Shown piece after piece: positions 3,290-47,354 of a stretch of DNA of 48,235 bases (position 1 is the stretch's first letter; each line of letters starts with the position of its first letter). The DNA comes from Giesbergeria sp. (GTDB lineage: Bacteria > Pseudomonadota > Gammaproteobacteria > Burkholderiales > Burkholderiaceae_C), in contig JAKLLE010000021.1 of assembly GCA_023150295.1 (NCBI GenBank), forward strand, positions 1 through 48,235, written 5' to 3'. The notes under the pieces are model-generated. The model was not told where the DNA came from and ran no database searches. It saw only the letters and a program-made list of their open reading frames with translations. A program made the translations under genes and the position numbers.

Positions 3290-4588
3290 TCACTCGGGCG
3301 TGGTGCAGAACACCGTCAGCACGCCGGTGTAGCCATAGAGCTGGTTGCGCGCAATCTCGCCCGCAGCGAAGAAGCCCACCAGCGGCACGTCGCCCAGGGC
3401 ATGGCGCACGATCTGCAGCTCGGCGCCCGGCGCGCCAAAATGCGGGCCGCCCCGGCCTGAGCAGCTCACGTAAATGGCGCCTGCCACCTCGCGCTGGCGG
3501 CCTGGTGCCAGTGCGGGCGCAGCGCCTTTCCCAATGCGCGAACGCTGCATGCTGGCGGCTGAAGGTTCGGTTTCTTCGGGGGCCAGCTCCTCGCGGATTT
3601 CGGTGCAGATGCGCACCAGGTCGGCCCGCGCCGCTGCCGCATGGCGCTGGCAAAAGGCCAGTTGCATGCCGGGCTCCACCGCCTCGGCCAGGGCCACCCC
3701 CTGGCGTGCGCCATCCAGCCCGAGGATGTGCCGCACCCGCGTGTCGGTGCCGAAGTGCCCGGTGCGTCCGGCAGCGCCAGATGTGCCGGCATTGGCGTTG
3801 GTCAGCCCCGCCAGCGTGGACCGGATGCGGCGCACCGCCTCCTGCGGATCGTCCTGCAGCGAAACGTCCAGCGTTTGCAGCAGCGCGCCCAGGGCAGGCT
3901 GGCCGTCCAGTTCCAGCACCACATTGCCATCGGCGGCGGTGATGCGCTGCGTGGGCCCCACAGGCTGGCACCCCTGGGTCACGCGCGACACCAGCTCCAC
4001 CCCGGCCCCGAAGGCTACCCCCGAAAGACCGCCGCTGAACACCCCGCCCGCCGCGCCATGTCCGGCCAGATTGCCATTGCCCGCCACGGCAAACTGCACG
4101 CCCGCGCCACGGCTGGCACACACGCCCCCGAACAGGTAGCCCGTGCGGGTGCGTTGCGCCATTTCGTCAATCAGGCCGGGAAGGTCGGGCGTGTGGCCGT
4201 CGGCATGGACCAAGGCCGTGTGCGCTGCAAACGGGCCGCTGGCGCTGCGCGGCAAGGGCGCAACGCCGGAGAACACACGGTATTGGTCCGGCGGCAGGTC
4301 CAGCAGCATGACGGCCAGGGCAGGCTCGTCCAGGTACTCGGCGCCCGAGGCGCACACCCCTGCGCCCACGGTGCCGCTCCAGTCGGTCACTTCGGGCAGC
4401 GCGGCCGACAGCACGTCCAGCAGCGCCGCCGCCTCGGCGGCGTAGTGGTCGGTGATGTAGATCAGGCCCAGCGTGGGTGCCTGGGCATGGCCGGGCAAGG
4501 CCATTTGTGCACGCAGCTGTGCCAGGACCAGGGCCACGGCCATGCGCCACTGGGGGTGCGTGGCATGCGCGGTGGGAAATCGCTTCAT
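3290..4588 (-). CDS. FIST domain signal-transduction protein
   Basis: The 432-residue product has the two-part FIST architecture: FIST_N (about residues 35-230, with GTVGAGVCASG and GYLFGGVCASRG) and FIST_C (about 240-420, ending VGFFAAGEIARNQLYGYTGVLTVF). FIST domains are proposed to sense small ligands such as amino acids, upstream of kinases or cyclic-di-GMP enzymes. I see no signal peptide, so it is probably cytoplasmic. It converges with the rhodanese-fusion gene, 28 bases away, and sits 39 bases downstream of phaM on the same strand. The ligand and partner cannot be told from the sequence. Confidence 0.82.
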   Translation of the reverse strand: MKRFPTAHATHPQWRMAVALVLAQLRAQMALPGHAQAPTLGLIYITDHYAAEAAALLDVLSAALPEVTDWSGTVGAGVCASGAEYLDEPALAVMLLDLPPDQYRVFSGVAPLPRSASGPFAAHTALVHADGHTPDLPGLIDEMAQRTRTGYLFGGVCASRGAGVQFAVAGNGNLAGHGAAGGVFSGGLSGVAFGAGVELVSRVTQGCQPVGPTQRITAADGNVVLELDGQPALGALLQTLDVSLQDDPQEAVRRIRSTLAGLTNANAGTSGAAGRTGHFGTDTRVRHILGLDGARQGVALAEAVEPGMQLAFCQRHAAAARADLVRICTEIREELAPEETEPSAASMQRSRIGKGAAPALAPGRQREVAGAIYVSCSGRGGPHFGAPGAELQIVRHALGDVPLVGFFAAGEIARNQLYGYTGVLTVFCTTPE

Positions 4589-4627
4589 GGAGGTGCCTGC
4601 AGCGCCCGTGCAATCAGCGCGGCGCGG

Positions 4628-5446
4628 TCAACCCGACTTGCGCCCTGCCTTCTTGGCCGGTGCGCGCTTGGCCGGGGCCTTGCGAGCGGCGGCCTTGCCT
4701 GCGGGGGCTTTGGCAACCGTGCGGGGCGTTCCCTCGGCGGTGGAGGTCTTCGTGCGGCGCCCGCTTGCCGCCACGGATTGCATGCCCCGGGCGGCCATGC
4801 CGGTGGCGGTTTTCAAGGCTTCCTTGGCCAGGCCGGTCGCCATGTTGCGCGTGGTGTCCAGCGCAGTTTGTTTGGCAGCGTCCTTCATGGCATTGGCCGC
4901 AATCTGCTGGAACTGCTGCGTCAGCGCGCCCCACCACTGCATGGGGTCAATCAGGCCGGCGGTGGCATCGGCCTTGGCATGTGCCTTGGTCTTGGCTGCT
5001 TTGGGGGCTGGGGCGGCAGGTTCTTCGGGGGTGGCCATGTCGGCGACCCGGCTGGCAGCCCCCGAGACGGCCTGCGCCGCATGCGCCAGCGTGTCGCTGG
5101 CCTTGTGCACGCCCTCCATCACGGTGTCTGCCGTCTTGAGCTTGAAGGCGTTGGCCACATCACCCACGCTGAAATTCATGCCCTTGAGGGTGGCCAGCGT
5201 CATCTTCTGCACCTCCAGTGCCTGGATGGTGGCGGCCAGCGCACGCGAGTTCTGCTCCAGCCAGAACTGCACTGCCTTGAGTTCTTCGATGCGCTTTTCC
5301 AGTTCTTCCACGCTGATGGTGGGAGCCACCCAATGGGACAGGTTGGGCAACTGCGGAATGCTGTTGGAAGCACCCTTGGCCAGGTTCTGGAGGAATTCGA
5401 AACCCGGCACGTATTTGCCGAAACCGAGGGGGGATGAGTCGCTCAT
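4628..5446 (-). CDS. phaM: PhaM, polyhydroxybutyrate granule-associated protein
   Basis: This 272-residue protein matches the PhaM family described in Ralstonia eutropha, which activates PHB synthase PhaC1 and tethers PHB granules to DNA. Residues 1-110 form the conserved PhaM domain (KYVPGFEFLQNLAKG, VSVEELEKRIEELKAVQFWLEQN). Residues about 210-272 form a lysine/alanine/proline-rich tail with AAKP-like repeats (KAPAKRAPAKKAG), the histone H1-like DNA-binding part. GGAG lies upstream of ATG 5446. No phaC, phaA or phaB gene is in the window, so the granule role comes from the family. Confidence 0.85.
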   Translation of the reverse strand: MSDSSPLGFGKYVPGFEFLQNLAKGASNSIPQLPNLSHWVAPTISVEELEKRIEELKAVQFWLEQNSRALAATIQALEVQKMTLATLKGMNFSVGDVANAFKLKTADTVMEGVHKASDTLAHAAQAVSGAASRVADMATPEEPAAPAPKAAKTKAHAKADATAGLIDPMQWWGALTQQFQQIAANAMKDAAKQTALDTTRNMATGLAKEALKTATGMAARGMQSVAASGRRTKTSTAEGTPRTVAKAPAGKAAARKAPAKRAPAKKAGRKSG

Positions 5447-5582
5447 AGCCGCTCCAATGGATGGAAAGTCGAGGATACGAACAGCTTACCCCAACGCGGC
5501 CCCTGTGCGCCATGGGCACCACCCTGCCCTGCGCACCCGCCCTGTGCCTGCACGACAGGCCAGGGCCGGTGGCGCGGGAGGA

Positions 5583-6074
5583 TTACTTGTGCATTCCGTG
5601 GCTGCCATGGCCGCCCTGCATGGCGGGCATCTGCGCCTGCACAGGCACCTGCAGCTCCAGCTTGCTCTCGGCGCCCTGGGCGTTCTTGAACGTCAGCGTC
5701 ACCGGCACGGTGCTGCCCTTGGCCAGGGGCGCCTTCAGGTCCATCAGCATGACGTGGTAGCCGCCGGGCTTGAGTTCCACGGCCTGGCCTGCGGGCAGGT
5801 CCAGGCCGGTGATGGCGCGCATTTTCATCACGTCGCCTTCCATCTTCATTTCGTGCACCTCGGTCACACCGGCGGCGGGCGATGCCGCGCCCACCAGGCG
5901 CGTGGCTTCGTTGGCAGTCAGGCGCATGAAGGCGCCCGTGGCCTTTTGGCCTTGCACGCTGGCGCGCGCCCAGGCGCCGTCCACGGTAACGGGAGCTGCC
6001 GTCTGGGCCTGTGCCAAGCCTGCGGCCAGGGCGGCGGCGACGAGCAGGGAAGAAGTGATGCGGGGGAAGTTCAT
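5583..6074 (-). CDS. PCu(A)C-type periplasmic copper chaperone
   Basis: This 163-residue exported protein binds Cu(I) in the periplasm and helps load cytochrome oxidase. The signal peptide ends near residue 23 (LAQAQ). The full H(M)X10MX21HXM copper motif is present: His74, Met76, Met85, His107 and Met109. The extra C-terminal tail is rich in Met and His (MPAMQGGHGSHGMHK) and may add metal sites. The start at ATG 6074 is backed by GGAGA upstream; an in-frame TTG four codons earlier lies in the ribosome-site region and is unlikely. The DUF2946 gene lies upstream on the same strand, a pairing often seen with copper proteins. Confidence 0.9.
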   Translation of the reverse strand: MNFPRITSSLLVAAALAAGLAQAQTAAPVTVDGAWARASVQGQKATGAFMRLTANEATRLVGAASPAAGVTEVHEMKMEGDVMKMRAITGLDLPAGQAVELKPGGYHVMLMDLKAPLAKGSTVPVTLTFKNAQGAESKLELQVPVQAQMPAMQGGHGSHGMHK

Positions 6075-6124
6075 GGTGTTCTCCAAATCAGGGCAATGCC
6101 GTTCAGGCGTTCAAAAAATACAAG

Positions 6125-6182
6125 TCAAAACAGGTTCTAGCGCCCTATTCATAAGCGCAAGCAGCTATATTTTTTATAGCAA
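6125..6182 (+). repeat. R2 dispersed repeat, copy 1
   Basis: This copy lies between the DUF2946 gene and the copper chaperone gene. It shares the core ATAAGCGCAAG-AGCTAT...ATAGCA with copies at 36773-36829 and 13531-13590. Its right end contributes the last codon or two and the TAA stop of the DUF2946 gene. Confidence 0.75.
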
Positions 6183-6545
6183 ATCAGGGGGGGGCGCACG
6201 CGCCTGGGCCTGGTGCACCGTGCAGGAGGGGGCTGCGCGCTGCGGGCGGCTGGGCACCGGGCTGGGCAGGGCCTGCGCCGCCAGCACCGGCAGCGCCACC
6301 ACAGGCACCAGCCAGGGCTGGGGCGGGCACAGTGGGCAGTCCTGGGCATGCCCAGGCACAGGGGCGTCCGGCGCGTTGGGCAGGGGCAGTACGCGCTGCT
6401 GGCCGGGCTGTTGGGCCGAGCAAATCCGCTGCAGATCCCAGCCCGCCCCACTGGGCGAGCGGGCCAGCGCACCGGGCATCTGCACCACGGCCCAGCACGC
6501 CAGCCACAGGCCGGCAAACCAATGGCGGGAGCGCGTGGTCAGCAT
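6174..6545 (-). CDS. DUF2946 family protein
   Basis: This 123-residue protein begins with a signal peptide or membrane anchor (WFAGLWLACWAVVQMPGALA). It holds the CPLC motif typical of DUF2946 (DCPLCPPQ near residue 70), followed by a second hydrophobic segment (PWLVPVVALPVLAAQ). DUF2946 proteins are small, of unknown function, and often sit beside copper genes, as here. The TAA stop falls inside repeat R2, so the C-terminus may differ from that of relatives. ATG 6545 has no strong ribosome site, so the start is provisional. Confidence 0.65.
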   Translation of the reverse strand: MLTTRSRHWFAGLWLACWAVVQMPGALARSPSGAGWDLQRICSAQQPGQQRVLPLPNAPDAPVPGHAQDCPLCPPQPWLVPVVALPVLAAQALPSPVPSRPQRAAPSCTVHQAQARAPPPDLL

Positions 6546-6669
6546 CGGGGCATTGTAGGAGGCACGGGTGGCGACCGAAGGCAGGCACCCGGTTTTCTTG
6601 ACCACCATCAACCCAATGCGCCGGTGCCGGGCGCAAGATGAAACCACCCACACCACACGGTACAAGCCC

Positions 6670-7026
6670 ATGAACACAGAACAAGCCGCCCCCTTCCAAC
6701 AGCAACTGATCACCCTGCGCCGCCAGGTGCTGGAGCAACTCGCCGCCCAGCGCGGAGGCACGCTGGGGCGCGCCGATGCCGCAGCAGAGCACTTCGGCCA
6801 CCCCGAGGATTCGCGCGCGCAGGTCTACACCGAGCGCGACATCGAATTTGCTCTGGGCGAACACGAAACCGCCCACCTTGCGGCCATTGATGCGGCGCTG
6901 GAGCGCATCCAGGCCGGCAGCTACGGCGAATGCACCGACTGCGGCGCCGACATTGGCACGGCACGCCTGCATGCCGCCCCCGAGGCAGCGCGCTGCCTGG
7001 GCTGCCAGGAAAAGGCAGAGGAGTGA
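6670..7026 (+). CDS. DksA/TraR-family zinc-finger protein
   Basis: This 118-residue protein has a helical N-terminal part (about residues 8-30 and 55-80) and a C-terminal C4 zinc finger of the DksA/TraR type with Cys88, Cys91, Cys109 and Cys112 (GECTDCGADIG...CLGCQ). Relatives bind the RNA polymerase secondary channel. This protein is shorter than DksA (about 150) and resembles the short TraR/YbiI-like forms, so its effect on transcription is uncertain. I chose ATG 6670 because homology begins there. It is alone on its strand, convergent with recD. Confidence 0.8.
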   Translation: MNTEQAAPFQQQLITLRRQVLEQLAAQRGGTLGRADAAAEHFGHPEDSRAQVYTERDIEFALGEHETAHLAAIDAALERIQAGSYGECTDCGADIGTARLHAAPEAARCLGCQEKAEE

Positions 7027-7030
7027 AACT

Positions 7031-7116
7031 CCCCCCTGAGGCGCCTTCGGCGCCTTCCCCCCTCCCGGCGCGGCGGGGCGGCCCTTGCGCGGGAGCCCTG
7101 GCATGGGGCGCGCCAG
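7031..7116 (-). repeat. R1 dispersed 3'-end repeat, copy C
   Basis: The 55-base module at 7062-7116, read on the minus strand, matches copies at 39961-40015 and 41173-41227 (4 mismatches to the first). Next to it is a C-run-flanked hairpin, AGGCGCC-TTC-GGCGCCT (7039-7055), just after the dksA-like stop codon. The same hairpin frame follows oxyR, but with a different stem sequence that still pairs. Confidence 0.8.
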
Positions 7117-7163
7117 TTACATACGTTAGGGGTGCGGCGTTTGCGGAATGGATCAATGAGAGG

Positions 7164-9152
7164 TCAAACCGCTAGCCGCGTCGGCAGGCCGCTGCTGCGC
7201 TGTGTGCGCTGGCGCAGGGCCTGCTCCAGTACGCTGGGCTGCGCGGCCACCAGGGTGAAGGCCTCGCGCGCGCGGGTGATGCCTGTGTACACCAGCTCCC
7301 GGCTGAGCAAGGCCCCGGCGGCCTGCGGCGGCAGCACGAGGACGGTGTGCCCGAACTCCGAGCCCTGGCTTTTGTGCACCGTCATGGCAAAGGCGGTTTC
7401 CACATGCGCCAGCCGGGCCACGCCCACCGAGCGCAGGTGCGGGCCGTCAGCAAAATAGGCGCGCAGGCCGCCGCCCGGCGCGGGCAGCGCGATGCCGATG
7501 TCGCCGTTGAAGACCCCCAGCCCCGCGTCGTTGCGCGTGACCATGATGGGGCGGCCTGCATACCACTCGCCGCGCCCCGGCAGCAGCCCGGCGCTGCGCA
7601 GGGCCGATTCGACCGCGCGGTTGAGCCCGGCAGCACCCCAGGGGCCTTCGCGCACAGCGCACAGCAGCCGGAATCCATCAAAAGCCTGCAGCACGCTGTG
7701 CACCCAGGCGGCATGGGGGGCCTCGTCAGCAGGCGCCTGCACTGACAGCGCGCGCAGATAGTCACGGTAGCAGGCCGGGGCCCCCACGCGGCCGCGCAGG
7801 GCCAGTTGCACTGCGGCGGCGGGGTCGGGGCTGGCCAGCAGGTGCACGCCGCCCTGAGGGTCGGCCTCCAGAATGTGGCGGGCCTGGGGGGCATGGCCCT
7901 GGTTCACCGCCTGCGCCAGTGCGCCGATGGCCCCCCCAAAGCGGCGGCTCTCGCGCAGCATGACCATGTGCTGCGCCAGCGCGGGCGCCTGGGCGCCGGG
8001 TTCGAGCAAGGCGTCCGGCAGGGTCTGGCCGGTGGTGGCCTGGAGGTAGCGGCGGGTCTCTGGGCTATAGCGGCCAGCAGATGCGTCGCGGCACAGGTCG
8101 CCCAGCACAGCGCCAGCCTCGACCGAGGCGAGCTGGTCCTTGTCGCCCAGCAGCACCAGGCGCGCGTTGGCGGGCAGTGCGTCGAGCAGCGCGGCCATCA
8201 TCTCCAGGTGCATCATGGAGGCTTCGTCCACCAGCAGCACATCCACATCGAGCGGGTGGCCCGCGTGGTGCCGCATCTGGCGCGTGAGGGGCCGCGCGCC
8301 CAGCAGTGCGTGCAGGGTGCGCGCCGGGCCCAGGCGCTGGGCCAGGGCCTGCAGGTCCAGGGCGCCCTGCAGGCGCGCTTGCAGGTCTTGCAGCGCGCCA
8401 TCGATGGATTGGCGCAGGCGCGCTGCCGCCTTGCCGGTGGGGGCGGCCAGGGCCACACGCCAGGGCCGGTCTGGCGGCTCCATGGCGGCCAGCAGGGCCA
8501 GCAGGCGGGCGGCGGTGTAGGTTTTGCCGGTGCCCGGCCCGCCGGTGAGCACGGCCACGCGCGAGCGCAGCGCCACGGCGCAGGCCAGTTGCTGCCAATC
8601 GATCCCGGTGCGTGCTTCGGCGTCTGCCGCCTGGCCTTGCGGCGCGGGCGCAAACAGGCGCGCCAGCCACTGGCTTGCCAGGGCTTCATCGACCGGCAGC
8701 GGCGCATGGGCACGCTCGCGCAGCGCTTGCGCCACACGGGTTTCGTAGCCCCAGTAGCGGCGCAGGTACAGCAGCGGCGCGCTGGCGCTGCCCCCCAGCA
8801 CCAGGGGCTGGCCAGCATCTTGCGCAGCGCCCTCCTCGCGCACCACCGGGCTGCTGCGCAGGGCATGGAGCCAATCGTCCAGGCGCTGCGGCAGCGCGTG
8901 CCAGGCCTGGGCAAGGGCCTGGGGCGCGGGGGCGGGCCAGGCCAGCAGGGCAGCGGGATCGCGCACCAGTGCGTCCAGCGGCAGGCAGGTGTGGCCGCGC
9001 CCTTCCAGGTGCGCGAGCACGGCGGTGGCCATCAGCAGCTCGGGGTGGGCCTGGGGGTCGAGCTCGGCCACCCAGCGGGCCAGTGCGCGGTCCAGGTGGC
9101 GCAGCCAACCGGCGTCCACCCATTGCTGCAGGAGTTCGAGGGGGGCGTTCAT
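7164..9152 (-). CDS. recD: RecD, exonuclease V alpha subunit
   Basis: This 662-residue protein is the 5'-3' SF1B helicase motor of RecBCD, which processes double-strand breaks. Walker A is GGPGTGKT at residues 204-211, followed by VDEASMMHLEMM (motif II), LLGDKDQLASVEAGAVLGDL (motif III) and a C-terminal UvrD-like motif (TVHKSQGSEF, ELVYTGITRARE). The length is close to the E. coli protein (608) with an extended N-terminal region. Its ATG overlaps the recB stop as ATGA, so recC, recB and recD are coupled in that order. Its 3' end converges with the dksA-like gene and R1. Confidence 0.96.
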   Translation of the reverse strand: MNAPLELLQQWVDAGWLRHLDRALARWVAELDPQAHPELLMATAVLAHLEGRGHTCLPLDALVRDPAALLAWPAPAPQALAQAWHALPQRLDDWLHALRSSPVVREEGAAQDAGQPLVLGGSASAPLLYLRRYWGYETRVAQALRERAHAPLPVDEALASQWLARLFAPAPQGQAADAEARTGIDWQQLACAVALRSRVAVLTGGPGTGKTYTAARLLALLAAMEPPDRPWRVALAAPTGKAAARLRQSIDGALQDLQARLQGALDLQALAQRLGPARTLHALLGARPLTRQMRHHAGHPLDVDVLLVDEASMMHLEMMAALLDALPANARLVLLGDKDQLASVEAGAVLGDLCRDASAGRYSPETRRYLQATTGQTLPDALLEPGAQAPALAQHMVMLRESRRFGGAIGALAQAVNQGHAPQARHILEADPQGGVHLLASPDPAAAVQLALRGRVGAPACYRDYLRALSVQAPADEAPHAAWVHSVLQAFDGFRLLCAVREGPWGAAGLNRAVESALRSAGLLPGRGEWYAGRPIMVTRNDAGLGVFNGDIGIALPAPGGGLRAYFADGPHLRSVGVARLAHVETAFAMTVHKSQGSEFGHTVLVLPPQAAGALLSRELVYTGITRAREAFTLVAAQPSVLEQALRQRTQRSSGLPTRLAV

Positions 9153-12100
9153 GCGGCGGTCTCAGCAGGGTCGAGCATGGCGTCGAGCGCATCGAGCAGG
9201 GCGGGTGACGGCGCCAGGTGGCACAGGCCCACCTGGGGCCCGTCGATCCCGCGCAGGAACCAGAACAGCGCACCGCCCAGGTGCTGCTGCGGTGCATAGG
9301 CAGCGCCCAGGCGCGCGCGCAGCAGGCGGTGCAGGGCCAGCAGGTAGAGCGCGGCTTGCACGTCATAGCGGTGCGCGGCCAGGGCGGCATCGAGTGCCTC
9401 TGCGGTGTAGGCCGCGCCGCTGTCGCCCAGGTGGTTGGATTTGTAGTCCAGCACCCAGTAGCGCCCGCCGTGCTCGAACACCAGGTCGGCAAAGCCCATG
9501 AGCATGCCGCGCAGCTCGCGCTCGGGCAGCGCCGGGCGTTCGCGCCCGGGCAGCAGGTGGGTGCGACACAGCGCATCGACCTCGGCGGCGCGCAGGCGGT
9601 GCACGGGCAGCCAAAATTCCATTTCGGGCAGCAGGCGCTGCAGGCCGCGCAGCGGTGCGCCCAGCGGCGGCATGGGGGTGTGCACCACGGCGCGGAGCCA
9701 TTGCAGGACGTCGGCGGCGCGCTCGCCATGGCCCGCGCGCTCGCAGCGCCTGCGCAGGCGCTCGGCCAGGGGGCCTTCGGGCTCCAGCGCAAAGCCTTCG
9801 GTTGTCAGCCATTCGAGCTGCTGGTGCAGGAAGTTGCCTGCCGCGCTGCCGCGCACGAACTGGTGCCAGGGCGCTGTCTGCGTTGCCGGGGAAAGCGACA
9901 TGCCCTGGGCTGTGGGCGGTGTCTCGTCAAACAGGTCCAGCGTGCGGCCTCGGGGCGTATCGGCCCAGGGGTCAGGCGCTGCGGCCCAGGCGGCGGGCGC
10001 GGCCAGCGGCACCAGGGGCGCAAGCTCGTCGTCGGCCGGGCGCTGGAGCGCCAGCGCAGCCAGGGGCACCGAACTTGGGGCACTGGCGCGCACCAGCTGC
10101 GAAAAACTGCCGATGCCCCAGCGCCGGTCGAACTGCGCGGCATAGGGCACGCTGGGGGCCAGCACCGGTGCATTGGCCACCAGGGCCAGGGCCTGCAGTG
10201 GCACGGGCAAGGGGGTGGCCGGCTGCACGCGCAGCAGCGCGGGCTGGGCATCGGCCAGGGCCTGCAATTGCGTGTGCCAGTCTTGTGGCTCCAGCGCGGC
10301 CTGGGGCCCGGCCAGCAGGCAGCCCAGGGCGCTGTCGTGCGTGCGGCACTGCTTGCCGTTGCCCACGCGCACGGCGGCAAAGCCCAGCCACACGCTGTGA
10401 CGCGCGCGGGTGAGGGCCACGTACAGCAGACGCAGGTCTTCGCGCAGGCGCTCGTGGGCGGTCTGTGCCTTGAGTGCGTCGGTCCAGTGCAGGTGCTGGT
10501 GGCGTTGGCCCTGGGCGTCTGGGAGCGCGGGGTAGTCACCCGCGTGCGTGCGTCCGCCGGGCACGCTCCAGGCAAAAGGCAGGCAGACCACGGGGTATTC
10601 CAGCCCCTTGCTCTTGTGCACGGTGACGACCTGCACCAGGTCGGCATCGCTCTCCAGGCGCAGGACTTGTTCGTCCCCGGCCATGCGGTCTTCGTGCACC
10701 TGGGTGTGCAGCCAGCGCAGCAGCGCGTGCTCGCCCTCCAGATGGCTGCTGGCCTCTTGCAGCAGTTCGGCCAGGTGCAGCACGTTGGTCAGGCGCCGCT
10801 CGCCGCCGTGGTCGCGCAGCCAACGGGCGGGCAGATCGAACTGGTGCAGGGTCTGGCGCAGCATGGTGAGCACGCCCTGGCTGCGCCAAACGGCGTGCAG
10901 CGCACGCAACTGGGCGCTGCGCTGCTCGAAGGCCTGGTCGTCGTCGGAGAGCGCGGCCAGCTCGCCCAAGCCCAGGCCGATGAGGCGGGTGGCCATGCCG
11001 GTGCGCAGCAAACTGGCGTCCTGCGGGTCGGCCACGGCCTGCAGCCACCACATCAGGTCGTGTGCCTCGTCGCTGTCGAACACCGAGTCGCGGTCGGACA
11101 GGTACACCGAGGCCACGCCCCGCTGCTGCAGCTGGCGCCGCACGGCGGCGGCCTCGGTGCGCGAGCGCACCAGCACGGCGATGTCTGCCGGGCGCAGGCG
11201 GCGCAAGGGGGCATCGGCCTGCGCAAAGCCGGTTTGCGCATCGGCCAGCCACTGCACGATCTGGGCGGCACAGCGCGCGGCAAAGCGTTCGCGGTGCTCG
11301 GGGATTCCCGCCAGCTCCAGGTCGTGGTGGATGTCCAGCGCGGGCACGGGGCCGTCAGCGGTCTGGAACTGCTCAGGCCGCCCGCGCGCCTGCACGGGCA
11401 CGAAGGGCAAGGGGTTCTCATCGCCCTGGGCGCTGCGGAACAGGAAGGCGCCTTCACCACCGCGCGCTTCGGCACGCTCAAACAGGTGGTTGACGGCGCC
11501 GACCAGCGCTTGCGTGGAGCGGTGGTTGGTGTCCAGCAGGTAGTGGCGCCCCTGGGTGGCGCGGCGCGCCTGCAGGTAGCTATGGATGTCGGCCCCGCGA
11601 AAGCCGTAGATGGACTGCTTGGGGTCGCCAATCAGCAGCAGCGCGGTGTCGGGCCGGGGCACGCTGGGCGCGTACAGCAGGTCGAACAAACGGTACTGCA
11701 GGGGAGAGGTGTCCTGGAATTCGTCGATCAGCGCCACCGGGTACTGGGCCGTGATGCGCGCGCGCAGGCGTGCGCCCTGCGGTGCCTGCAAGGCCTGCAC
11801 CAGGCGCTGCAGCAGGTCGCGAAAGCCGAGCACGCGGCCCTGGCGCTTGAGCAGGGCCACGCGCTGCTGCACCTGGGTGGCGGCGTGCAGGCGCAGCCGT
11901 GCGGCCAGCGGTGTGGTCGCTTGCAACGCCTGCTGCAGGTGCTCCAGCGCGGCAGAGGCTTCGGGCAGATCGAGCGGCGGTGCGCTGGCAAGGCGCGCCT
12001 CCCTCAGCCCCTGGGGGGTGAGGCGGCGCCAGGCGGCTTCGGGCCACTCCAGCGGCTGCCACAGGTCCCCTTCCAACCACTGTTGCAGGGCGTCGAGCCA

Positions 12101-12940
12101 GGTGGTGCAGCGACCGATCTGGATCTTGCGCCCGTCCCAGTGGGCCTTGTGCTGTTGCAGGTGCACCTCCAGCCAGTCGCGCAGCGATTGCACATGCTGC
12201 GGCCAACCTGCACGCAGGGTTTGCTCCTGCTCTGCATGCGCTTGCAGGCACTGCACCAGCGTGGCGGGCTGCGCCAGCGCGGGCAGGTCGGCGTCCAGCA
12301 GCTTGCTCAGGTCGGCATGCAGCGCATCGACATGGGGCCAGACGCGGGACGCGGCTTCGAACTGCGCAGGGGTCAGCCCATAGCACTGCTGGCGCCAGTA
12401 GTCCTGCACGGCCTGGGCCTGCAGGCTGTGCTCGTCGGTGCTCAGTTCTTCTTCGGCCAGTTGGCCGCTGTCCACGGCGTGCTCGCGCAGCATGCGCTGG
12501 CACCAGGCGTCGATGGTGAACACGGCCGCTTCGTCCATGGCCTCGGCGGCCAGCGCCAGCCGCCAGGCCGCGTGCTCGCGCTGCGGGCCGGGGGGGTATT
12601 GCTGCAGCAGCGCGGCCAGAAAAGGGTCGCCCTCGGGCACCGGGGCCTGGCCGCGAAAGCACTGCGCCGCCTGCGCCAGCCGCGCACGGATGCGGCTGGA
12701 CAGCTCACGCGTGGCGGCGCGGGTGAAGGTCATCACCAGGATCTGCGCGGGCATCAGCGGCTGCGGGTGGCCTTGCACCCCCCCATGGCCCAGTACCAGG
12801 CGCAGCACAAGCGCGGCGATGGTCCAGGTCTTGCCGGTGCCTGCGCTGGCCTCGATGAGGCGGCTGCCGTGCAGCGGAAAGTCCAGCGGGTTGAGCACCT
12901 GGGGCGCGTCGCTGTGCGGGTGCAGCTGGGGCGTGCTCAC
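9149..12940 (-). CDS. recB: RecB, exonuclease V beta subunit
   Basis: This 1263-residue protein is the 3'-5' helicase and the nuclease of RecBCD. Walker A is SAGTGKT at residues 32-38. Other helicase motifs include ALIDEFQDTSPLQYRLF, LIGDPKQSIYGFRGADI and VVTVHKSKGLEYPVV. The C-terminal nuclease has Asp1152 (GFADLVFE), Asp1165 and Lys1167 (VLDYKSN), spaced exactly as E. coli D1067, D1080 and K1082, so it should be active. The start is GTG 12940, overlapping the recC stop as GTGA; an ATG at 13039 in the same frame lies inside recC. A Chi site for this organism is unknown. Confidence 0.95.
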   Translation of the reverse strand: MSTPQLHPHSDAPQVLNPLDFPLHGSRLIEASAGTGKTWTIAALVLRLVLGHGGVQGHPQPLMPAQILVMTFTRAATRELSSRIRARLAQAAQCFRGQAPVPEGDPFLAALLQQYPPGPQREHAAWRLALAAEAMDEAAVFTIDAWCQRMLREHAVDSGQLAEEELSTDEHSLQAQAVQDYWRQQCYGLTPAQFEAASRVWPHVDALHADLSKLLDADLPALAQPATLVQCLQAHAEQEQTLRAGWPQHVQSLRDWLEVHLQQHKAHWDGRKIQIGRCTTWLDALQQWLEGDLWQPLEWPEAAWRRLTPQGLREARLASAPPLDLPEASAALEHLQQALQATTPLAARLRLHAATQVQQRVALLKRQGRVLGFRDLLQRLVQALQAPQGARLRARITAQYPVALIDEFQDTSPLQYRLFDLLYAPSVPRPDTALLLIGDPKQSIYGFRGADIHSYLQARRATQGRHYLLDTNHRSTQALVGAVNHLFERAEARGGEGAFLFRSAQGDENPLPFVPVQARGRPEQFQTADGPVPALDIHHDLELAGIPEHRERFAARCAAQIVQWLADAQTGFAQADAPLRRLRPADIAVLVRSRTEAAAVRRQLQQRGVASVYLSDRDSVFDSDEAHDLMWWLQAVADPQDASLLRTGMATRLIGLGLGELAALSDDDQAFEQRSAQLRALHAVWRSQGVLTMLRQTLHQFDLPARWLRDHGGERRLTNVLHLAELLQEASSHLEGEHALLRWLHTQVHEDRMAGDEQVLRLESDADLVQVVTVHKSKGLEYPVVCLPFAWSVPGGRTHAGDYPALPDAQGQRHQHLHWTDALKAQTAHERLREDLRLLYVALTRARHSVWLGFAAVRVGNGKQCRTHDSALGCLLAGPQAALEPQDWHTQLQALADAQPALLRVQPATPLPVPLQALALVANAPVLAPSVPYAAQFDRRWGIGSFSQLVRASAPSSVPLAALALQRPADDELAPLVPLAAPAAWAAAPDPWADTPRGRTLDLFDETPPTAQGMSLSPATQTAPWHQFVRGSAAGNFLHQQLEWLTTEGFALEPEGPLAERLRRRCERAGHGERAADVLQWLRAVVHTPMPPLGAPLRGLQRLLPEMEFWLPVHRLRAAEVDALCRTHLLPGRERPALPERELRGMLMGFADLVFEHGGRYWVLDYKSNHLGDSGAAYTAEALDAALAAHRYDVQAALYLLALHRLLRARLGAAYAPQQHLGGALFWFLRGIDGPQVGLCHLAPSPALLDALDAMLDPAETAA

Positions 12941-15900
12941 GGGGAAGCCTCCGTGCTGCCCGCTGCAGTGGTGGCGGTGGCAGCGCCATGGTCGTGCACG
13001 CGGACGGCCGTGTGGGCCCACTGTTCCAGCGGCGCCCACAGGGCCTGGGCGGCCTGCGTCAGGCGGCCGTCTGCGGCCAGTGCGTCGTAGTCTGGGTAAA
13101 AGCGTGCCCAGGCCGGGTCTTGCGCCTCACCGTCCTGCTGGCTGGTGCCTTCGTAGGCGGCGCGTGCGGCGGATTCATCTTCCAGCAACGCCAAGGCCGT
13201 GCGGCGTGGCAGGGGCAGCGGGGCGCTCTGGCCCTGGCTGCAAGCGTGCAGCCAGAGGTCGAGCTGGGTGCGGGCGGCTTCGGGTGCGAGCGGCTCCCAG
13301 GCCAGCCACACGTCACGCGCCACCAGCAGCCCTTGCAGCGCGGTACCGCTGGCCGCTGCGGCCAGGTTGCACAGCCAGGGGTGGATGAGCAGGTCGGTGC
13401 GCAGGCTGCGTTTTTTCGCATCGCGCAGCAGGCGCGAAGGGCTCAGCGCCATCCACACCGCCTGCCCCGCTGCGTTGCAGCGCAGGCCGTCGAGCCAGTC
13501 CTGCAGGCTGAGCGCCGATTTGAATTCATGGTCATTTTGTGCCTTTGCGCCCGTCTGATAAGCGCAAGTAGCTATCAAATTGATAGCATCTGGAGTCTGG
13601 AGCGTTCGGCAGACCTGCACCCGTGCGGCGGGCTGGGCATGGGCACGCTGCAGGGCTTGCCAGGTTTGCAGCACCGGCAGCCACTCTGCGTCCCACTGGG
13701 CGACGAGCTGCTCGCCCGGCGTCCCCAGCGGCAGCAGGCCCGCACGGCGCAGTCGCTGCAGGGCCTGGCCCAGGTGCTGGCGGGGCGCGCTGTCGGGCAA
13801 GTCTGCCCAGTCGGTGGGCAGATGGTCGAGCAACTGGCGCGCGACGGTGTGGCTCTCCAGCCCCGCCAGGTGGAAGGGCTCGGCGTCTTCCGGCGCATCG
13901 TCGCCGCGGTCGAACACCACGCCCAGGCGCGTGCGCAGAAAGTACCGTGCCGGGTGGCGCATCCAATCGGCCAGGTCGCGCAGGGCCAGGGGTGCAGCGG
14001 CTTCCCGTGGCGGCAGCGCTTGCACAGCCTCTGGGGTGCCTGCGGGCGCGCAGGCATGGGCTTCGCGCCATTCGCGGGCATGGGTGAACAAGCCCGCTTC
14101 GCCCTGGAAGTAGCGCGCGCTGAAGGGCTGCAGCGGGTGTTCGGTGGTGCGCTCGGCCAGCACCTGCGGCCCCCAGGCGGCCTGGAGGTAGTCGCGCAGC
14201 TGTGCCACCAGCACAGAGGGCGGTTGCTCGGTGTTGTCGCGCACGTTGCGCCCGGTCCAGCTCACGTAGAGCACACGGCGCGCTGCCAGCAGCGCGTCGA
14301 GCATGAGCTGGCGGTCGTCGGTCTGGCGCGAACGGTCACCGGGGCGCGCCTGGCCGGGCTGGGCCATGAGGTCGAAGTCGTTGCGCGGCGTGCGGCGCGG
14401 GTATTCGCCGTCGTTCATGCCCAGCAGGCAGACGACCTCGAAGGGGATCGCACGCATGGGCATGAGCGTGCAGAAGGTGACCCCCCCGGCACGGAAGCGT
14501 TGTTGGGTGGCGGGCAGTTCCAGGCATTGCGCCACGGCGTCCTGCGCGGTTTCCAGCGGCAGGGCCTGGGCAAAGCCTGCGACGTCGCAGGCCTGGAGCC
14601 AGGCCTCCAGCGCGGCATTCAAGGCTTCGAGCACCTGGCGATCGCCCTCGTCGGTGGCTGCAAAGCATGCCGCCCAGAGGGAGCGCAAGCGCTGTGCCCA
14701 TTGCCCGGGCGTGGCGGGCTCGCTGGCCTCGCGGCGCCAGGCTTCCAGGCGCTCGAGCAGGGCGGCCAGGGCGCCGACCAGGGCAGCGTCCAGCCCGCCG
14801 ACCTCGGTGCAGGGTTCGATGTCGGCAAAGCTGGCCGCACCACCGGCATAGCCCAGGAGCATGCGCTGTAGGCCAAAGTGCGCGCTGTTGGTGGCACCGC
14901 AAAGCGGCAGATCCAGGGCATTGCGGTGGTCTTGCGTGAGGCCCCAGCGGATCCCGGCCTGGGCCATCCAGTGCACCAGGGTATCGCAGTCCTGCGGCTG
15001 CACGCCCAGGCGGGCCGCCAGGGCGGGTACGTCCAGCAGCGCATGCAGCTCGCTCAGGGTGCAGCGGCGCGCGGGCAGGCCCCAGAGCCATTCCACGGCG
15101 GCCATCAGCGGCTGGCTGGCGCGCGGGCTCTGGTCGGCAATGTCGAAGGGGATGTGGCGCGCATCGTCCGGCGGGTACTGCGCAAAGACCGCGCGGATGG
15201 CGGGCGCCATGGCGTCGATGTCCGGCACCATGACCACGATGTCACGCGGGTGCAGCGCCCTGCCCTGCGGCGGGTGCGCCAGCAGTTCCAGCAACTGGTC
15301 GTGCAGCACCTCGACCTCGCGCAGCGCGCTGTGCGCCGCGTGGAACTGGATCGAGCGGTCGTCAGGCGCCACAAGGGACTGCGGATGCTCGGCCAAAGGC
15401 ACCAGGTCGCGGATGCGGTGTTGCACCTGCAGCAGCAGGGGTGCATCCTGCACCTCGCCCTCGTCGAACAGATCCAGGCGCGGCATGCCCCACAGCGAAG
15501 GCTCCGCAGAAGCCTCCTCGTAGGCGTCGAGCTGGCGCACAAAATCGCGGCTTTGGCGCCCCCAGGCAGCCAGCAGCGGATGGGCATGCAGGTGCATCTG
15601 CTCCAGCGGCACGAGGGCCAGATCCCGCCCCGCCCGCGCCGGAAGGCGCCGCTGGCGCATACGCAGCCACTCGCGGCCATCCATGATGTCGGCCCAGTGA
15701 AAACGGCAGGGGTTGGGGATGGCCAGCAGAATCTGGCTGCCACGCGCCATGGCGCAAAGCCAGTCCAGCACCGGCTGCGGCACATGCGCCATGCCGAACA
15801 GGACGACACGGCGCGGCCATGGGGCACTCTGCGCCGGAAGCTGCCCCTTCCGCAAGGCATCGAGCGCGCGCCGGTGCACCTGCGGACGCACGGCCTGGCG

Positions 15901-16506
15901 CTCGGCCTCGGTCAGCCCCTGCAGCACCGCACGCCACAGCCCAGGCTGCCAGCGCTCACTTTCGGGCAGAGGCGAAAGCTCGCCCCCCGGGCCGCGCAGA
16001 CCATCGCGCCCGTGGGCCCAGTCGTCGAGCCAGTCGGGTCGATAGACCTGGTACTGATCCCACAGATCGGCCAGACGCCGGGCCAGCAGGTAGTGGTCGT
16101 GGGGTCCGGCCCTGCGCACTGTGTGGGCCAGTGGCGCGTATTCGGGCTGCTCGGTCAGCGACGGAAGGAGCGCGAGCAGCCGCCAGGTCAGCGCGGCCTT
16201 GTCCGTGGGCGCATCGGCGCCCACCTGCGCACCGAGCACCTGCCGGTAACTGCGCCACAGAAAGCGCGAGGGCAGCTCCACCCGAAGCGCCGCACCGATG
16301 CCGCTGCGCACCGCCATGGTCATCTTGAACCACTCGGCCATGGCATTGCTTTGCACCAGCACCACTTCGGGCTCCAGCGGCTCCAACGGATGGCGGTGCA
16401 ACCACTCTGCCACAGTCTGGGCCAGGTCTTCCATGCGGTTGCCATGCAGCGCCAACCATCCTGGTTGCAGGGAACTGGCCAGGGTCTGCGCTTGCTCTTC
16501 CATCAT
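12937..16506 (-). CDS. recC: RecC, exonuclease V gamma subunit, with in-frame repeat insertion
   Basis: This 1189-residue protein is the scaffold and Chi-recognition subunit of RecBCD, with inactive helicase-like and nuclease-like domains. Recognisable parts are the N-terminus (GWLALHGNRMEDLAQTV), VVLVQSNAMAEWFKM, VVLFGMAHVPQPVLDWL and CLLGMNDGEYPRRTPRNDFDLM. Residues about 973-992 (DAINLIATCAYQTGAKAQND) are encoded by repeat R2, which occurs elsewhere in this window between genes. The frame stays open. This segment probably forms a surface loop in the C-terminal region and should be missing from relatives. The start is ATG 16506, immediately followed by a second ATG; no strong ribosome site is seen. 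It is first in the recCBD operon. Confidence 0.94.
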   Translation of the reverse strand: MMEEQAQTLASSLQPGWLALHGNRMEDLAQTVAEWLHRHPLEPLEPEVVLVQSNAMAEWFKMTMAVRSGIGAALRVELPSRFLWRSYRQVLGAQVGADAPTDKAALTWRLLALLPSLTEQPEYAPLAHTVRRAGPHDHYLLARRLADLWDQYQVYRPDWLDDWAHGRDGLRGPGGELSPLPESERWQPGLWRAVLQGLTEAERQAVRPQVHRRALDALRKGQLPAQSAPWPRRVVLFGMAHVPQPVLDWLCAMARGSQILLAIPNPCRFHWADIMDGREWLRMRQRRLPARAGRDLALVPLEQMHLHAHPLLAAWGRQSRDFVRQLDAYEEASAEPSLWGMPRLDLFDEGEVQDAPLLLQVQHRIRDLVPLAEHPQSLVAPDDRSIQFHAAHSALREVEVLHDQLLELLAHPPQGRALHPRDIVVMVPDIDAMAPAIRAVFAQYPPDDARHIPFDIADQSPRASQPLMAAVEWLWGLPARRCTLSELHALLDVPALAARLGVQPQDCDTLVHWMAQAGIRWGLTQDHRNALDLPLCGATNSAHFGLQRMLLGYAGGAASFADIEPCTEVGGLDAALVGALAALLERLEAWRREASEPATPGQWAQRLRSLWAACFAATDEGDRQVLEALNAALEAWLQACDVAGFAQALPLETAQDAVAQCLELPATQQRFRAGGVTFCTLMPMRAIPFEVVCLLGMNDGEYPRRTPRNDFDLMAQPGQARPGDRSRQTDDRQLMLDALLAARRVLYVSWTGRNVRDNTEQPPSVLVAQLRDYLQAAWGPQVLAERTTEHPLQPFSARYFQGEAGLFTHAREWREAHACAPAGTPEAVQALPPREAAAPLALRDLADWMRHPARYFLRTRLGVVFDRGDDAPEDAEPFHLAGLESHTVARQLLDHLPTDWADLPDSAPRQHLGQALQRLRRAGLLPLGTPGEQLVAQWDAEWLPVLQTWQALQRAHAQPAARVQVCRTLQTPDAINLIATCAYQTGAKAQNDHEFKSALSLQDWLDGLRCNAAGQAVWMALSPSRLLRDAKKRSLRTDLLIHPWLCNLAAAASGTALQGLLVARDVWLAWEPLAPEAARTQLDLWLHACSQGQSAPLPLPRRTALALLEDESAARAAYEGTSQQDGEAQDPAWARFYPDYDALAADGRLTQAAQALWAPLEQWAHTAVRVHDHGAATATTAAGSTEASP
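13531..13590 (+). repeat. R2 dispersed repeat, copy 3, inside recC
   Basis: The segment ends in ATAAGCGCAAGTAGCTATCAAATTGATAGCA, which matches copies 1 and 2 closely, and includes the palindrome GCTATCAA-A-TTGATAGC. It lies within recC, opposite the coding strand, and is translated there in an open frame. Its base composition is clearly more A+T-rich than the surrounding recC sequence. Confidence 0.85.
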
Positions 16507-34366: not shown

Positions 34367-35860
34367 ATGACCTACCTGCTTGCACTCGACCAGGGCACCT
34401 CCAGCTCGCGCAGCATCGTGTTCGACGAACTGGGCCACATCGTGGCCCAGGCGCAGCTCGAACTGCCCCAGATCTACCCCCGCCCCGGCTGGGTGGAGCA
34501 CGACCCCCTGGAGATCTGGCGCACCCAGCTCGCCACTGCGCGCGAGGCGCTGGCCCAGGCCGGCATTGCGGCCAGCGAGGTGCGCGCCGTGGGCATCACC
34601 AACCAGCGCGAAACCACGGTGCTCTGGAACCGCCAAACCGGCCAGCCCGTGCACCACGCCATCGTCTGGCAGGACCGGCGCGCCGAGCCCGCCTGCGCGC
34701 AATTGCGCGCGCAAGGCCATGCCGACAGCATCCAGGCCAAGACCGGGCTGCTGGTCGATGCCTATTTTTCAGGCACCAAGCTGCAGTGGATGCTGGACCA
34801 CCTACCCGGCGCGCGCGAGGCGGCCGAGCGCGGCGAACTGGCCTTCGGCACGGTGGACAGCTGGCTGATGTGGAAACTCACCCACGGCGCGGTGCATGTG
34901 ACCGACGTGAGCAACGCCGCACGCACCATGCTCTTCAACGTGCGCACCAACCAGTGGGACGAAGAACTGCTCGAACTGCTGCGCATCCCCAAGGCGCTGC
35001 TGCCCGAGGTGCTGCCGTCGAGCAGCCATTTCGGTGATACCGCCGCCGACCTGCTGGGCCACCCCATCCGCATCGGCGGTGTGGCGGGCGACCAGCAGAG
35101 CGCGCTGTTCGGCCAGGCGTGCTTTTCCGCCGGCATGGCCAAGAACACCTACGGCACGGGCTGCTTCATGCTCATGCACACGGGCCAGAACTTCCAGACC
35201 TCGCGCAACGGCCTGCTCACGACGAGCGCAGCACAAGCTGGGAAACAACCCGAATTCGCGCTGGAAGGCAGCGTATTCGTGGGCGGCGCCGTGGTGCAGT
35301 GGCTGCGCGACGGGCTGCGCGCCATTTCCACCAGCAGCGAGGTCGAATCGCTCGCACTCACTGTGCCCGATTCGGGCGGCGTGATGATGGTGCCCGCCTT
35401 CACCGGCCTGGGCGCGCCCTACTGGAAGCCCGACGCGCGCGGCACCATCACCGGCCTCACGCGCGGCACCACGCTGGCGCACATCGCGCGCGCCTCGCTC
35501 GAATCCATCGCCTACCAAAGCGCCGCCCTGCTGCTGGCCATGAGCCGCGACGCCGTGGCCGCGGGCGGCCAGCCGGTGAGCGAGCTGCGCGTGGACGGCG
35601 GCGCCTGCATCAACGACCTGCTGATGCAGTTCCAGGCAGACCTGCTGGGCATTCCGGTGGTGCGCCCCGCCGTGATCGAAACCACAGCGCTGGGCGCCGC
35701 CTACCTGGCCGGGCTGTCCAGCGGCGTGTACGGCAGCACCGACGAGCTCTCGCGCCTGTGGCGCGCCGAGCGCCGCTTCGTGCCCACCCTGCCCGCCGCC
35801 CGGGCCCAGGAGCTGATGGCGCGCTGGGATCACGCCGTGCGCCAAGCCACTTTGGAGTAG
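34367..35860 (+). CDS. glpK: Glycerol kinase
   Basis: This 497-residue FGGY-family kinase makes glycerol-3-phosphate from glycerol and ATP. It begins [21 protein letters not shown] (phosphate-1 motif) and contains [23 protein letters not shown] and [13 protein letters not shown], all typical of GlpK. Length is standard (E. coli 502). It lies 19 bases after glpR and feeds GlpD. Confidence 0.97.
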
Positions 35861-35928
35861 CCGCCACCGGCCAGCGGCCCGTTGGCGCTACCATCGTGGC
35901 CCCTGAAATTGCCACTTCGCACCGCACC

Positions 35929-36768
35929 ATGAGCCCTACCCCCGCCTCCTCCCCACAGCTCCCCGTGATCGCCTTCATTGGCGGCGGCAACATGGCCAGC
36001 GCCATCATTGGCGGGCTGATCCGCCAGGGCCATCCGGCCAGCCAGATCGAGGTGGTGGAGCCCTGGGACGAGGCCCGCGCCGCCCTGCACAAGAACTTTG
36101 GCATCGAGGCCCTGCCCGCCCCCGGCCCTGCGCTGGCGCGCGCGGGCATCGTGGTCTGGGCCGTCAAGCCGCAAACCTTCAAGAACGCCGCAGCGCAAAC
36201 CCGCGAGCACACCCAGCACGCGCTGCACCTGAGCGTCGCTGCCGGTATCCGATCCGACAGCATTGCCCAGTGGCTGGGCAGTGATTGCATCGTGCGCACC
36301 ATGCCCAACACCCCCGCGCTGGTGGGCAAGGGCATGAGCGCGCTGTATGCCCGCGCAGGGGTGAGCGACGCACAGCGCCAGAGCGTGGAAGCCATCATGG
36401 CCACCACGGGCGAATTTTTGTGGGTAGAGAACGAAAAGCAGCTCGACGCCGTGACCGCCCTTTCCGGCTCGGGCCCGGCCTACGTGTTCTATTTTTTGGA
36501 GGCCATGACCCGCGCAGGCACGGCCATGGGCCTGAGCCCCGCGCAGGCGCACCAGCTCGCCGTGGGCACGTTTGTGGGCGCCTCTGAACTGGCGCGCCGC
36601 TCCGACGAACCGCCCGAGGTGCTGCGCCAGCGCGTCACCTCCAAGGGCGGCACCACCTACGCGGCCATCCAGTCGCTCGAAAAGGACGGCGTGGGCGCCA
36701 GCTTTGAGGCTGCCATGCGTGCTGCGGAACAGCGTGCCCATGAATTGGGCAACGAGTTCGGCGCTTGA
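35929..36768 (+). CDS. proC: Pyrroline-5-carboxylate reductase
   Basis: This 279-residue enzyme catalyses the last step of proline synthesis using NAD(P)H. The nucleotide-binding motif IAFIGGGNMASAIIGGLI is at residues about 14-31. The family signature appears as ALSGSGPAYVFYFLEAMTRAG and VTSKGGTTYAAIQSLE. The start is ATG 35929; the frame is open upstream into glpK. Repeat R2 lies just after the stop codon, between proC and ubiA. Confidence 0.95.
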   Translation: MSPTPASSPQLPVIAFIGGGNMASAIIGGLIRQGHPASQIEVVEPWDEARAALHKNFGIEALPAPGPALARAGIVVWAVKPQTFKNAAAQTREHTQHALHLSVAAGIRSDSIAQWLGSDCIVRTMPNTPALVGKGMSALYARAGVSDAQRQSVEAIMATTGEFLWVENEKQLDAVTALSGSGPAYVFYFLEAMTRAGTAMGLSPAQAHQLAVGTFVGASELARRSDEPPEVLRQRVTSKGGTTYAAIQSLEKDGVGASFEAAMRAAEQRAHELGNEFGA

Positions 36769-36772
36769 AGTG

Positions 36773-36828
36773 TTTTTGGCCTCCAGCGCTTATTCCATAA
36801 GCGCCAATAGCTACTATTTTGATAGCAC
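36773..36828 (+). repeat. R2 dispersed repeat, copy 2
   Basis: Between the convergent proC and ubiA genes lies the cleanest R2 copy: a perfect hairpin GCGCTTAT-TCC-ATAAGCGC followed by a weaker second one (GCTA/TAGC). It may end transcription from both genes. Confidence 0.8.
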
Positions 36829-39801: not shown

Positions 39802-39960
39802 GGTTTCTCCTGTGAGGTGGTGGTGCAGAAAAGGCTTGCCACGCAGGCATGGGAACACTGTAGCGCAGGCACCCCGCACCGCGCGGCAAAAACCCTGCGC
39901 CGGGAGCTGACCCTTCAGTTGACCATTTCGCAAACGCAGCCCCCCCCACAACCCACGAAA

Positions 39961-40086
39961 CCGGCGCGCCCCAGACCAGGGCTCCCGCGCAAGGGCCGCC
40001 CCGCCGCGCTGGGAGCGTTCCCCCTCCCGAATCGCGCAGCGATTCGAGAGAGGGGGGAAGCCGCGCAGCGGCTCAGGGGGGTATCG
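39961..40086 (+). repeat. R1 dispersed 3'-end repeat, copy A
   Basis: The 55-base module at 39961-40015 is followed by the hairpin CGAATCGC-GCA-GCGATTCG (40028-40046) and then by a G-run-flanked hairpin (AGCCGC-GCA-GCGGCT) that ends next to the oxyR stop codon. The module differs from copy B by 2 of 55 bases and from copy C by 4. The rest of the 288-base dps-oxyR spacer shows no gene. Confidence 0.8.
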
Positions 40087-41058: not shown

Positions 41059-41172
41059 GGGTTTCACAGTGTAAGCAAGCTGCACTTGCAGTGCCATCGC
41101 TGATCATGCCGCAGCGCAACAAATTGGCGCATGAATTCAGTGACGTGAACGCTGCGCCCACGACGCCTGCAA

Positions 41173-41312
41173 CCGGCGCGCCCCAGGCCAGGGCTCCCGC
41201 GCAAGGGCCACCCCGCCGCGCTGGGAGCGTCCCCTCTCCCCCTGCCCCTCTCCCACCAGGGGAGAGGGGGTAACACCTCCCCTCCCCCCTCGCGGGGTAG
41301 GGGTCGGGGGAG
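41173..41312 (+). repeat. R1 dispersed 3'-end repeat, copy B, with CT/GA-rich hairpins
   Basis: The 55-base R1 module (41173-41227) lies between oxyR and the recG stop codon. It is followed by CCCCTCTCCC-ACCAG-GGGAGAGGGG (41245-41269, perfect 10-bp stem) and a second pyrimidine/purine block to about 41318. The 291-base spacer holds no gene. Confidence 0.75.
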
Positions 41313-46090: not shown

Positions 46091-46190
46091 TCCAGCATAG
46101 TCCGCTTTGCCGCACAAGCAAGCCGGATTTGCCACAATCGCGCCCCACACGTTTTTTTCTTGGAACGGGCCTGTCCGGCCCTCAAGCCCC

Positions 46191-47306: not shown

Positions 47307-47345
47307 AACGATAGCATTTAGCGCTTATTGGATAAGGGCTGGATG
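47306..47345 (-). repeat. R2 dispersed repeat, copy 4 (truncated)
   Basis: Read on the minus strand, the segment resembles copy 2 (GGCATCCAGC...ATAAGCGCTAAA) but lacks the second palindrome. It lies between the convergent queA and PIN-toxin genes, right at the queA stop codon. Confidence 0.55.
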
Positions 47346-47354
47346 CCGATTTGC

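Follow-up and report, generated by a model that had tools for sequence, protein, structure and literature searches.

A dispersed 66-bp repeat translated within recC of Giesbergeria sp., and codon evidence that the repeat DNA, rather than the peptide, may be what is held

The stretch of Giesbergeria sp. DNA analysed here (48,235 nucleotides, the window) carries on its minus strand the genes recC (12937-16506; NCBIfam TIGR01450, 901 bits), recB (9149-13039; NCBIfam TIGR00609, 920 bits) and recD (7164-9152; NCBIfam TIGR01447, 533 bits), in this order. The RecC protein has 1189 residues, with the RecC_C domain (PF17946) at residues 838-1110. Within recC lies a copy of the dispersed repeat R2 (13525-13590, minus strand), which is 66 bp long, in frame with the gene and open in that frame across the whole element, and which is translated as residues 973-994 (DAINLIATCAYQTGAKAQNDHE). 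A first-pass annotation had proposed that R2 is translated inside recC, and this is confirmed, the extent being slightly longer than first given. The copy scores 43.1 bits and is identical to the family consensus at 47/66 bases in the best ungapped register, while shuffled recC sequences reach at most 32 (200 mononucleotide shuffles) or 33 (200 codon shuffles). These shuffles and reversed-sequence controls rule out a chance resemblance of the recC segment to R2.

The other R2 copies that had been reported in the window are likewise real, two of them strong and one weaker. The first (6119-6182, minus strand; nhmmer 50.5 bits) lies between the convergent ORFs 4473-6140 (plus strand) and 6184-7104 (minus strand) and overlaps the end of the former. 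The second (36774-36827, minus strand; nhmmer 39.9 bits) lies downstream of ORF 35119-36768 (plus strand), and the third (47310-47358, plus strand; nhmmer 21.8 bits), which is degenerate or truncated, directly follows ORF 46107-47306 (plus strand). The flanking ORFs are predictions from a mechanical list, and two further matches of 12-14 bits (36785-36806 and 42980-43010) were left uncounted. Two other repeats are present in the window. A 149-nt inverted repeat is found at both contig ends (23-171 and 48087-48235, 96% complementary) and probably belongs to a multicopy element at which the assembly broke off. A second repeat of ∼80 bp (39945-40028, 41157-41240 and, inverted, 7062-7141; 84-89% alike) bears no likeness to R2 by eye.

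A 20-bp core of the recC copy (13558-13577, minus strand), used as a census query, matches this genome at 94 places when up to 3 mismatches are allowed, the recC copy included, versus 1 for the reversed pattern, which bears out the earlier supposition that R2 is multicopy. Allowing up to 2 mismatches, the core is present in 51 of 200 genomes of the bacterial family, with up to 121 matches per genome, and the reversed core has one match across the same 200 genomes. With a sequence model of 55 R2 copies, eight genomes belonging to four genera each give at least 150 matches, and a ninth gives a single weak one (E 0.006). The density of 20-bit matches in samples from six genomes of the genus is 6.7-11.7 per 100 kb (4 in 48 kb for the window, and 2 in 20, 6 in 60, 4 in 60, 19 in 200 and 7 in 60 kb for five others; 0 in reversed sequence), which extrapolates to ∼250-430 sites per genome of 3.7 Mb. 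The R2 consensus is 66 bp long with 36% G+C (24/66), contains two short predicted hairpins, both internal, and by inspection begins with TTGCTAT and ends with AAAAT.

Copies were fetched for 90 of the 94 cores in this genome and for 70 of the 72 in genome G003. At least 38 of the 90 core loci of this genome have R2 at the same place in G003, as judged against the 70 fetched G003 loci, and of 30 loci fetched from genome G012, at least 6 correspond to one of the R2 loci fetched here. Many R2 sites turn over between genomes.

R2 is a genome-wide coding-repeat phenomenon comparable to the REP and RPE elements. The GTAG/CGTC REPs are described, in the part of PMC3733652 available, as short dispersed palindromes, mostly intergenic, some of which are translated in genes including recBCD and truB; two Xanthomonas species have them at nearly the same position in recB, and several species have them in truB. 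The first-pass annotation knew of no such case in RecBCD, but REPs in recBCD genes are already published there. R2 is REP-like in its high copy number (94 cores) and in the presence of some copies inside genes (10/90 fetched), but whereas the GTAG/CGTC REP has its tag at one end, the R2 consensus ends by inspection without GTAG or CGTC. Synonymous-site conservation is not taken up in section 15 of the same paper. The RPEs are 105-146 bp long, with long stem-loops and terminal inverted repeats (PMC2229807, available portion). Like them, R2 is translated in frame within conserved proteins (recC, argF, truB, purL and earP), but it is shorter, at 66 bp, and its predicted hairpins are internal; its hosts, to judge from the record names, would be free-living.

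Parts of R2 are also visible among motifs in print. In Acidovorax ebreus, the spaced motif GCTTAT(N)5AAGCG is given in the accessible text of PMC5217627 with 114 copies, of which 5 lie in genes and 107 are intergenic (44 convergent, 4 divergent and 59 co-oriented). The central part of the R2 consensus contains an exact match to this motif, in a comparison made at the level of the motif rather than the A. ebreus genome. The Polaromonas naphthalenivorans motif ATAGCT(N)22CAAAAG from the same source starts with the R2 core ATAGCT, and its second half is partly similar by eye. As far as that text extends, both motif pairs are given as unexplained, and neither translation nor codons are considered. 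The BRE of Bordetella and other betaproteobacteria is dispersed, sometimes lies in coding sequences and occurs in Comamonadaceae; at ∼90 bp and 69% G+C, versus 66 bp and 36% G+C for R2, it is set apart by its description (PMC3110155, available part). R2 differs from MITEs in having no terminal inverted repeats, its consensus ends being non-complementary by inspection. A literature search that included R2 sequence strings, which led to no paper, found, within the texts it returned, no description of R2 translation in recC and none of the codon result reported below; PMC2755013, in its accessible portion, speaks only of CRISPR. Already known are thus coding REPs and RPEs, and the middle of R2 as a motif. 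Unexpected here is that third codon bases are held to the R2 family base.

The RecC alignment comprises 102 rows, 11 loci having been omitted (5 duplicates, including that of G008, and 6 partial); 40 of the 48 listed places without a locus were fetched. An insert at the same site is found in 14 of the 102 rows, from 13 of the 23 genus genomes with a RecC match and from one Simplicispira record. Between the flanking anchors, the segment measures 41-51 residues in these 14 rows, compared with a median of 21 (range 21-39) in the 88 rows without the insert, in agreement with the earlier proposal that it is an insertion. The R2 score at the site is 17-50 bits in the 14 rows and <10 bits in all other 88. 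The same proposal would have confined the insert to close relatives, which is not what is found: RecCs at 55-61% identity carry R2 at the identical site and in the identical frame.

Phylogenetic trees were calculated for 36 of the 102 RecC rows, with the insert columns removed from the more careful one. In the careful protein tree, one change places all 14 inserts (branch support 75/72; 76% of bootstrap trees), while the quick tree requires two changes and does not reject a single clade (p 0.67). From these sequence comparisons, a single old insertion is the most likely origin of all 14 inserts, though it is not proven. If several lineages had each received R2 at this recC site independently and recently, the fresh state of the DNA would be explained. 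Such insertions would fit the two changes of the quick tree, the variation in left-flank length by a few codons between clades, and the fact that recC has been struck at another loop in other genera. In G029, G169 and G170 (L053, L098 and L140), R2 lies in this different loop (30.6, 44.9 and 22.5 bits), at about residues 820-840 of the present RecC, with two copies in another frame and one on the opposite strand. However, orientation and reading frame are identical in all 14 rows (L046 included), the careful tree needs one change, and a shared position is seen in four other genes too, and we regard repeated insertion as very improbable.

An AlphaFold model of RecC (52 sequences, mean pLDDT 82) matches E. 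coli RecC (1w36_C) with a TM score of 0.78 by query length. Residues 971-995, between the strands 963-968 and 1000-1005, have pLDDT <50, as do residues 822-829 at the R2 site of the other genera, and this low confidence suggests that both recC sites are probably flexible loops. A short helix drawn at residues 974-982 has little meaning at such confidence. No support is found for a role of the segment in Chi recognition: it falls within the C-terminal RecC_C domain, in a loop modelled with low confidence.

R2 is not confined to recC: nine other recognised genes of this genome contain it. A spanning open frame is present at 55 of the 90 fetched copies, of which only 14 are coding-like on both sides by third-position composition, and 10 of the 90 lie in genes recognised by HMMs. 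These are recC, argF, purL, truB, comEC, earP, and the genes for pyruvate dehydrogenase E2, a PdxR-like regulator, a short-chain dehydrogenase and a sensor kinase, in which the copy sits between domains. Among genus orthologues, the segment scores as R2 (≥10 bits) in 19/23 for argF, 19/22 for truB, 18/21 for purL and 18/22 for earP, and in these four genes too the position of R2 is shared. The rows that do not score are those of three R2-free genomes in each gene, together with the argF of G015 (L217) and the earP of G010 (L287). Relative to the best solved homologue, the segment adds ∼3 residues in argF, ∼4 in truB, ∼7 in purL and ∼2 in earP, so that a clean insertion is seen in recC alone and R2 in the other four genes mostly occupies a loop whose length is close to the native one. 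The truB site (L192), which holds R2 here and for which unrelated repeats are in print for several other bacteria, is a recurrent landing site. Two different TruB genes (L236 and L249) are present in the single bin of G022, which suggests that this bin is mixed.

Coding palindromic repeats are usually taken to be selfish DNA that the protein happens to tolerate. An ordinary selfish insertion of this kind, in which recC took up a MITE or REP and selection has since acted on the protein only, would agree with the low-confidence loop, the many copies, and the toleration of several frames and both orientations. The third codon bases speak against it. At family-conserved R2 columns with a synonymous choice in five genes (with this genome and its two closest relatives, G003 and G023, left out), 565 of 652 third bases (0.87) agree with the R2 family base, compared with 0.42 expected from the codon usage of the same genes and 0.38 for equal synonyms. 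The fit per gene is 0.83-0.89 (recC 86/97, argF 145/168, truB 118/134, purL 109/124 and earP 107/129).

Retention of A/T-ending codons gives a similar picture. It was counted where the residue is equal, over pairs of orthologues with up to 88% amino-acid identity; the pairs are ordered and non-independent and include R2-free rows, with G003 present twice for purL and two G022 loci for truB. The family-base count given above draws on these rows too, apart from this genome, G003 and G023. In recC, such codons are retained in 834/1047 cases (0.80) inside R2 versus 4248/17372 (0.24) outside, and the corresponding values are 0.69 versus 0.31 in argF, 0.69 versus 0.40 in truB, 0.68 versus 0.29 in purL and 0.68 versus 0.34 in earP. 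The column-bootstrap intervals for inside and outside are separate in all five genes, while A/T-rich control windows from the same genes give 0.23-0.45, which for argF and truB runs into the inside interval.

Without correction, identity at third positions is higher within R2 than outside it for recC alone (0.62 versus 0.57), the values being 0.58 versus 0.65 in argF, 0.52 versus 0.57 in truB, 0.59 versus 0.64 in purL and 0.52 versus 0.53 in earP. This failure to rise in four of five genes is a point in favour of selfish insertion, and because of it the third-base signal is visible only with correction for codon bias. For the same reason, the lower third-position ratio inside R2 (in recC 0.94 inside, 1.30 in the 30-codon flanks and 1.78 outside, with the same direction in the other genes) owes much to faster first and second positions. 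Residue identity among the recC pairs is 37% in the R2 peptide, 39% in the 30-codon flanks and 64% in the remainder; since flanks and peptide are so close, the recC element lies in a stretch that evolves fast anyway. Protein-only selection on a selfish insertion does not predict the codon result, so either the R2 DNA is selected or its copies are constantly rewritten. With third bases following the family base far above the codon-usage expectation, except in a clade without R2, we consider selfish insertion alone improbable.

This clade serves as a natural control. In G002 and G005, zero R2 matches of 20 bits are found in 400 kb sampled from each. Together with G008, which was grouped with them by clade, they form one clade (100/100) nested among R2-bearing genomes in a midpoint-rooted four-gene tree. 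G022, with its mixed-looking bin, was dropped from this tree and from the per-genome codon retention. G002 is nested in the outgroup-rooted RecC tree as well. The RecC of G005 (L054) is placed elsewhere, outside the four-gene clade of its genome, which suggests that recC was transferred or replaced. Over argF, truB, purL and earP, third bases in the R2-free clade fit the R2 family in 34/89 cases (0.38), versus 0.38 expected from codon usage. With this genome as the reference, A/T-ending codons are retained in 6/22, 7/21 and 6/23 cases (0.26-0.33) in the R2-free genomes, compared with 0.42-0.45 in the remainder of the same genes. The other 18 genomes, of which 8 had R2 measured directly and the remainder were called R2-bearing from the gene segments, retain 0.64-0.87. 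These values for the clade represent a single event, two of its three genomes being near-identical.

Residue identity of the R2-free clade to the reference is 0.54 over 71/82 aligned positions, and 0.50-0.84 in the other genomes. R2 thus seems to have disappeared from the clade, with some of the peptide sequence that it encoded left behind, and the clade would show what follows once the demand on the DNA is lifted. Less probably, its ancestors never had R2 at these places, a view that carries most weight for recC and earP, in neither of which a remnant is seen. A diverged R2-like family hidden in these genomes was considered and rejected, R2 sub-words being near background in the 400 kb sampled from each. 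The most over-represented 12-mers of the G002 and G005 samples are what we take to be CRISPR-like repeats, and the R2-free samples (L428-L467) have 57% G+C versus 63-64% in the R2-bearing samples.

Two accounts of the codon result are left, of which we favour selection of R2 as a site read by a factor over rewriting of its copies. In the latter, homogenisation by gene conversion, or by annealing of single-stranded R2 at replication forks, would overwrite copies without selection. Deep recC copies resemble each other about as much as they resemble random copies (0.61 versus 0.59), as homogenisation would have it, and the loss of all donors would account for the relaxed codons of the R2-free clade. 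However, orthologous copies exceed random likeness in the other four genes (argF 0.73 versus 0.58, truB 0.65 versus 0.55, purL 0.73 versus 0.62 and earP 0.63 versus 0.57), and the recC spacer is identical in this genome and its closest relative, unlike that of other clades. The R2 family profiles differ little among G000, G003 and G012 (between G000 and G012 at just 4/66 columns, p<0.001), which also counts against homogenisation; most of the profiled copies were picked by their core, whose columns are alike by choice, so only the non-core columns are informative here. Homogenisation appears to us rather unlikely.

The explanation we find best, and to which we give moderate credence, is that R2 is a REP-like element whose recC peptide is tolerated rather than selected, and whose DNA is selected as a putative factor-read site. 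In this view, some members of the genus descend from an ancestor in which one R2 copy entered a recC loop in frame and was then retained, while further copies would have come to occupy loops of argF, purL, truB, earP and other genes. The RecC peptide would be a tolerated passenger. The R2 DNA would be under selection as a site for a putative trans-acting factor, either a DNA-binding protein or a REP-type transposase system, which the R2-free clade may have lost. It appears to be the DNA of the repeat that is kept, and not the peptide.

A broader proposal, which we put forward tentatively and at slightly short of even chances, is that R2 might be a genome-wide DNA signal for this putative factor, with enzyme genes held to spelling it; on loss of the factor, the sites would fade and the peptides would stay as fossils. 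If the DNA is indeed what is kept, the function of REP-like elements would become directly testable, with a simple screen for the putative reading factor.

Several other properties of R2 were surveyed. RNA structure received no support as the cause: in a covariation analysis, 0 of the 25 top Watson-Crick-excess pairs fall on the two predicted R2 stems, whose columns hardly vary and give low power, and a search of 211 bases against Rfam gave no match up to E 5. Among 39 core copies on a 3.92-Mb contig of G012, the plus/minus counts are 7/13 in the first half and 6/13 in the second (hand count), and with such similar counts no Chi- or KOPS-like strand switch is seen. At six intergenic loci common to this genome and G012, R2 is no better conserved than the better-conserved flank; its motif blocks are kept and its spacers vary. 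At one locus (L176), the R2 core is in frame with a phage terminase gene, past its domain (Pfam GpA_nuclease), and R2 may also occur in prophage DNA. At L188 and L333, the interval separating two genes consists of R2, both in this genome and in G012, and by eye the upstream stop and the downstream start lie in it or next to it.
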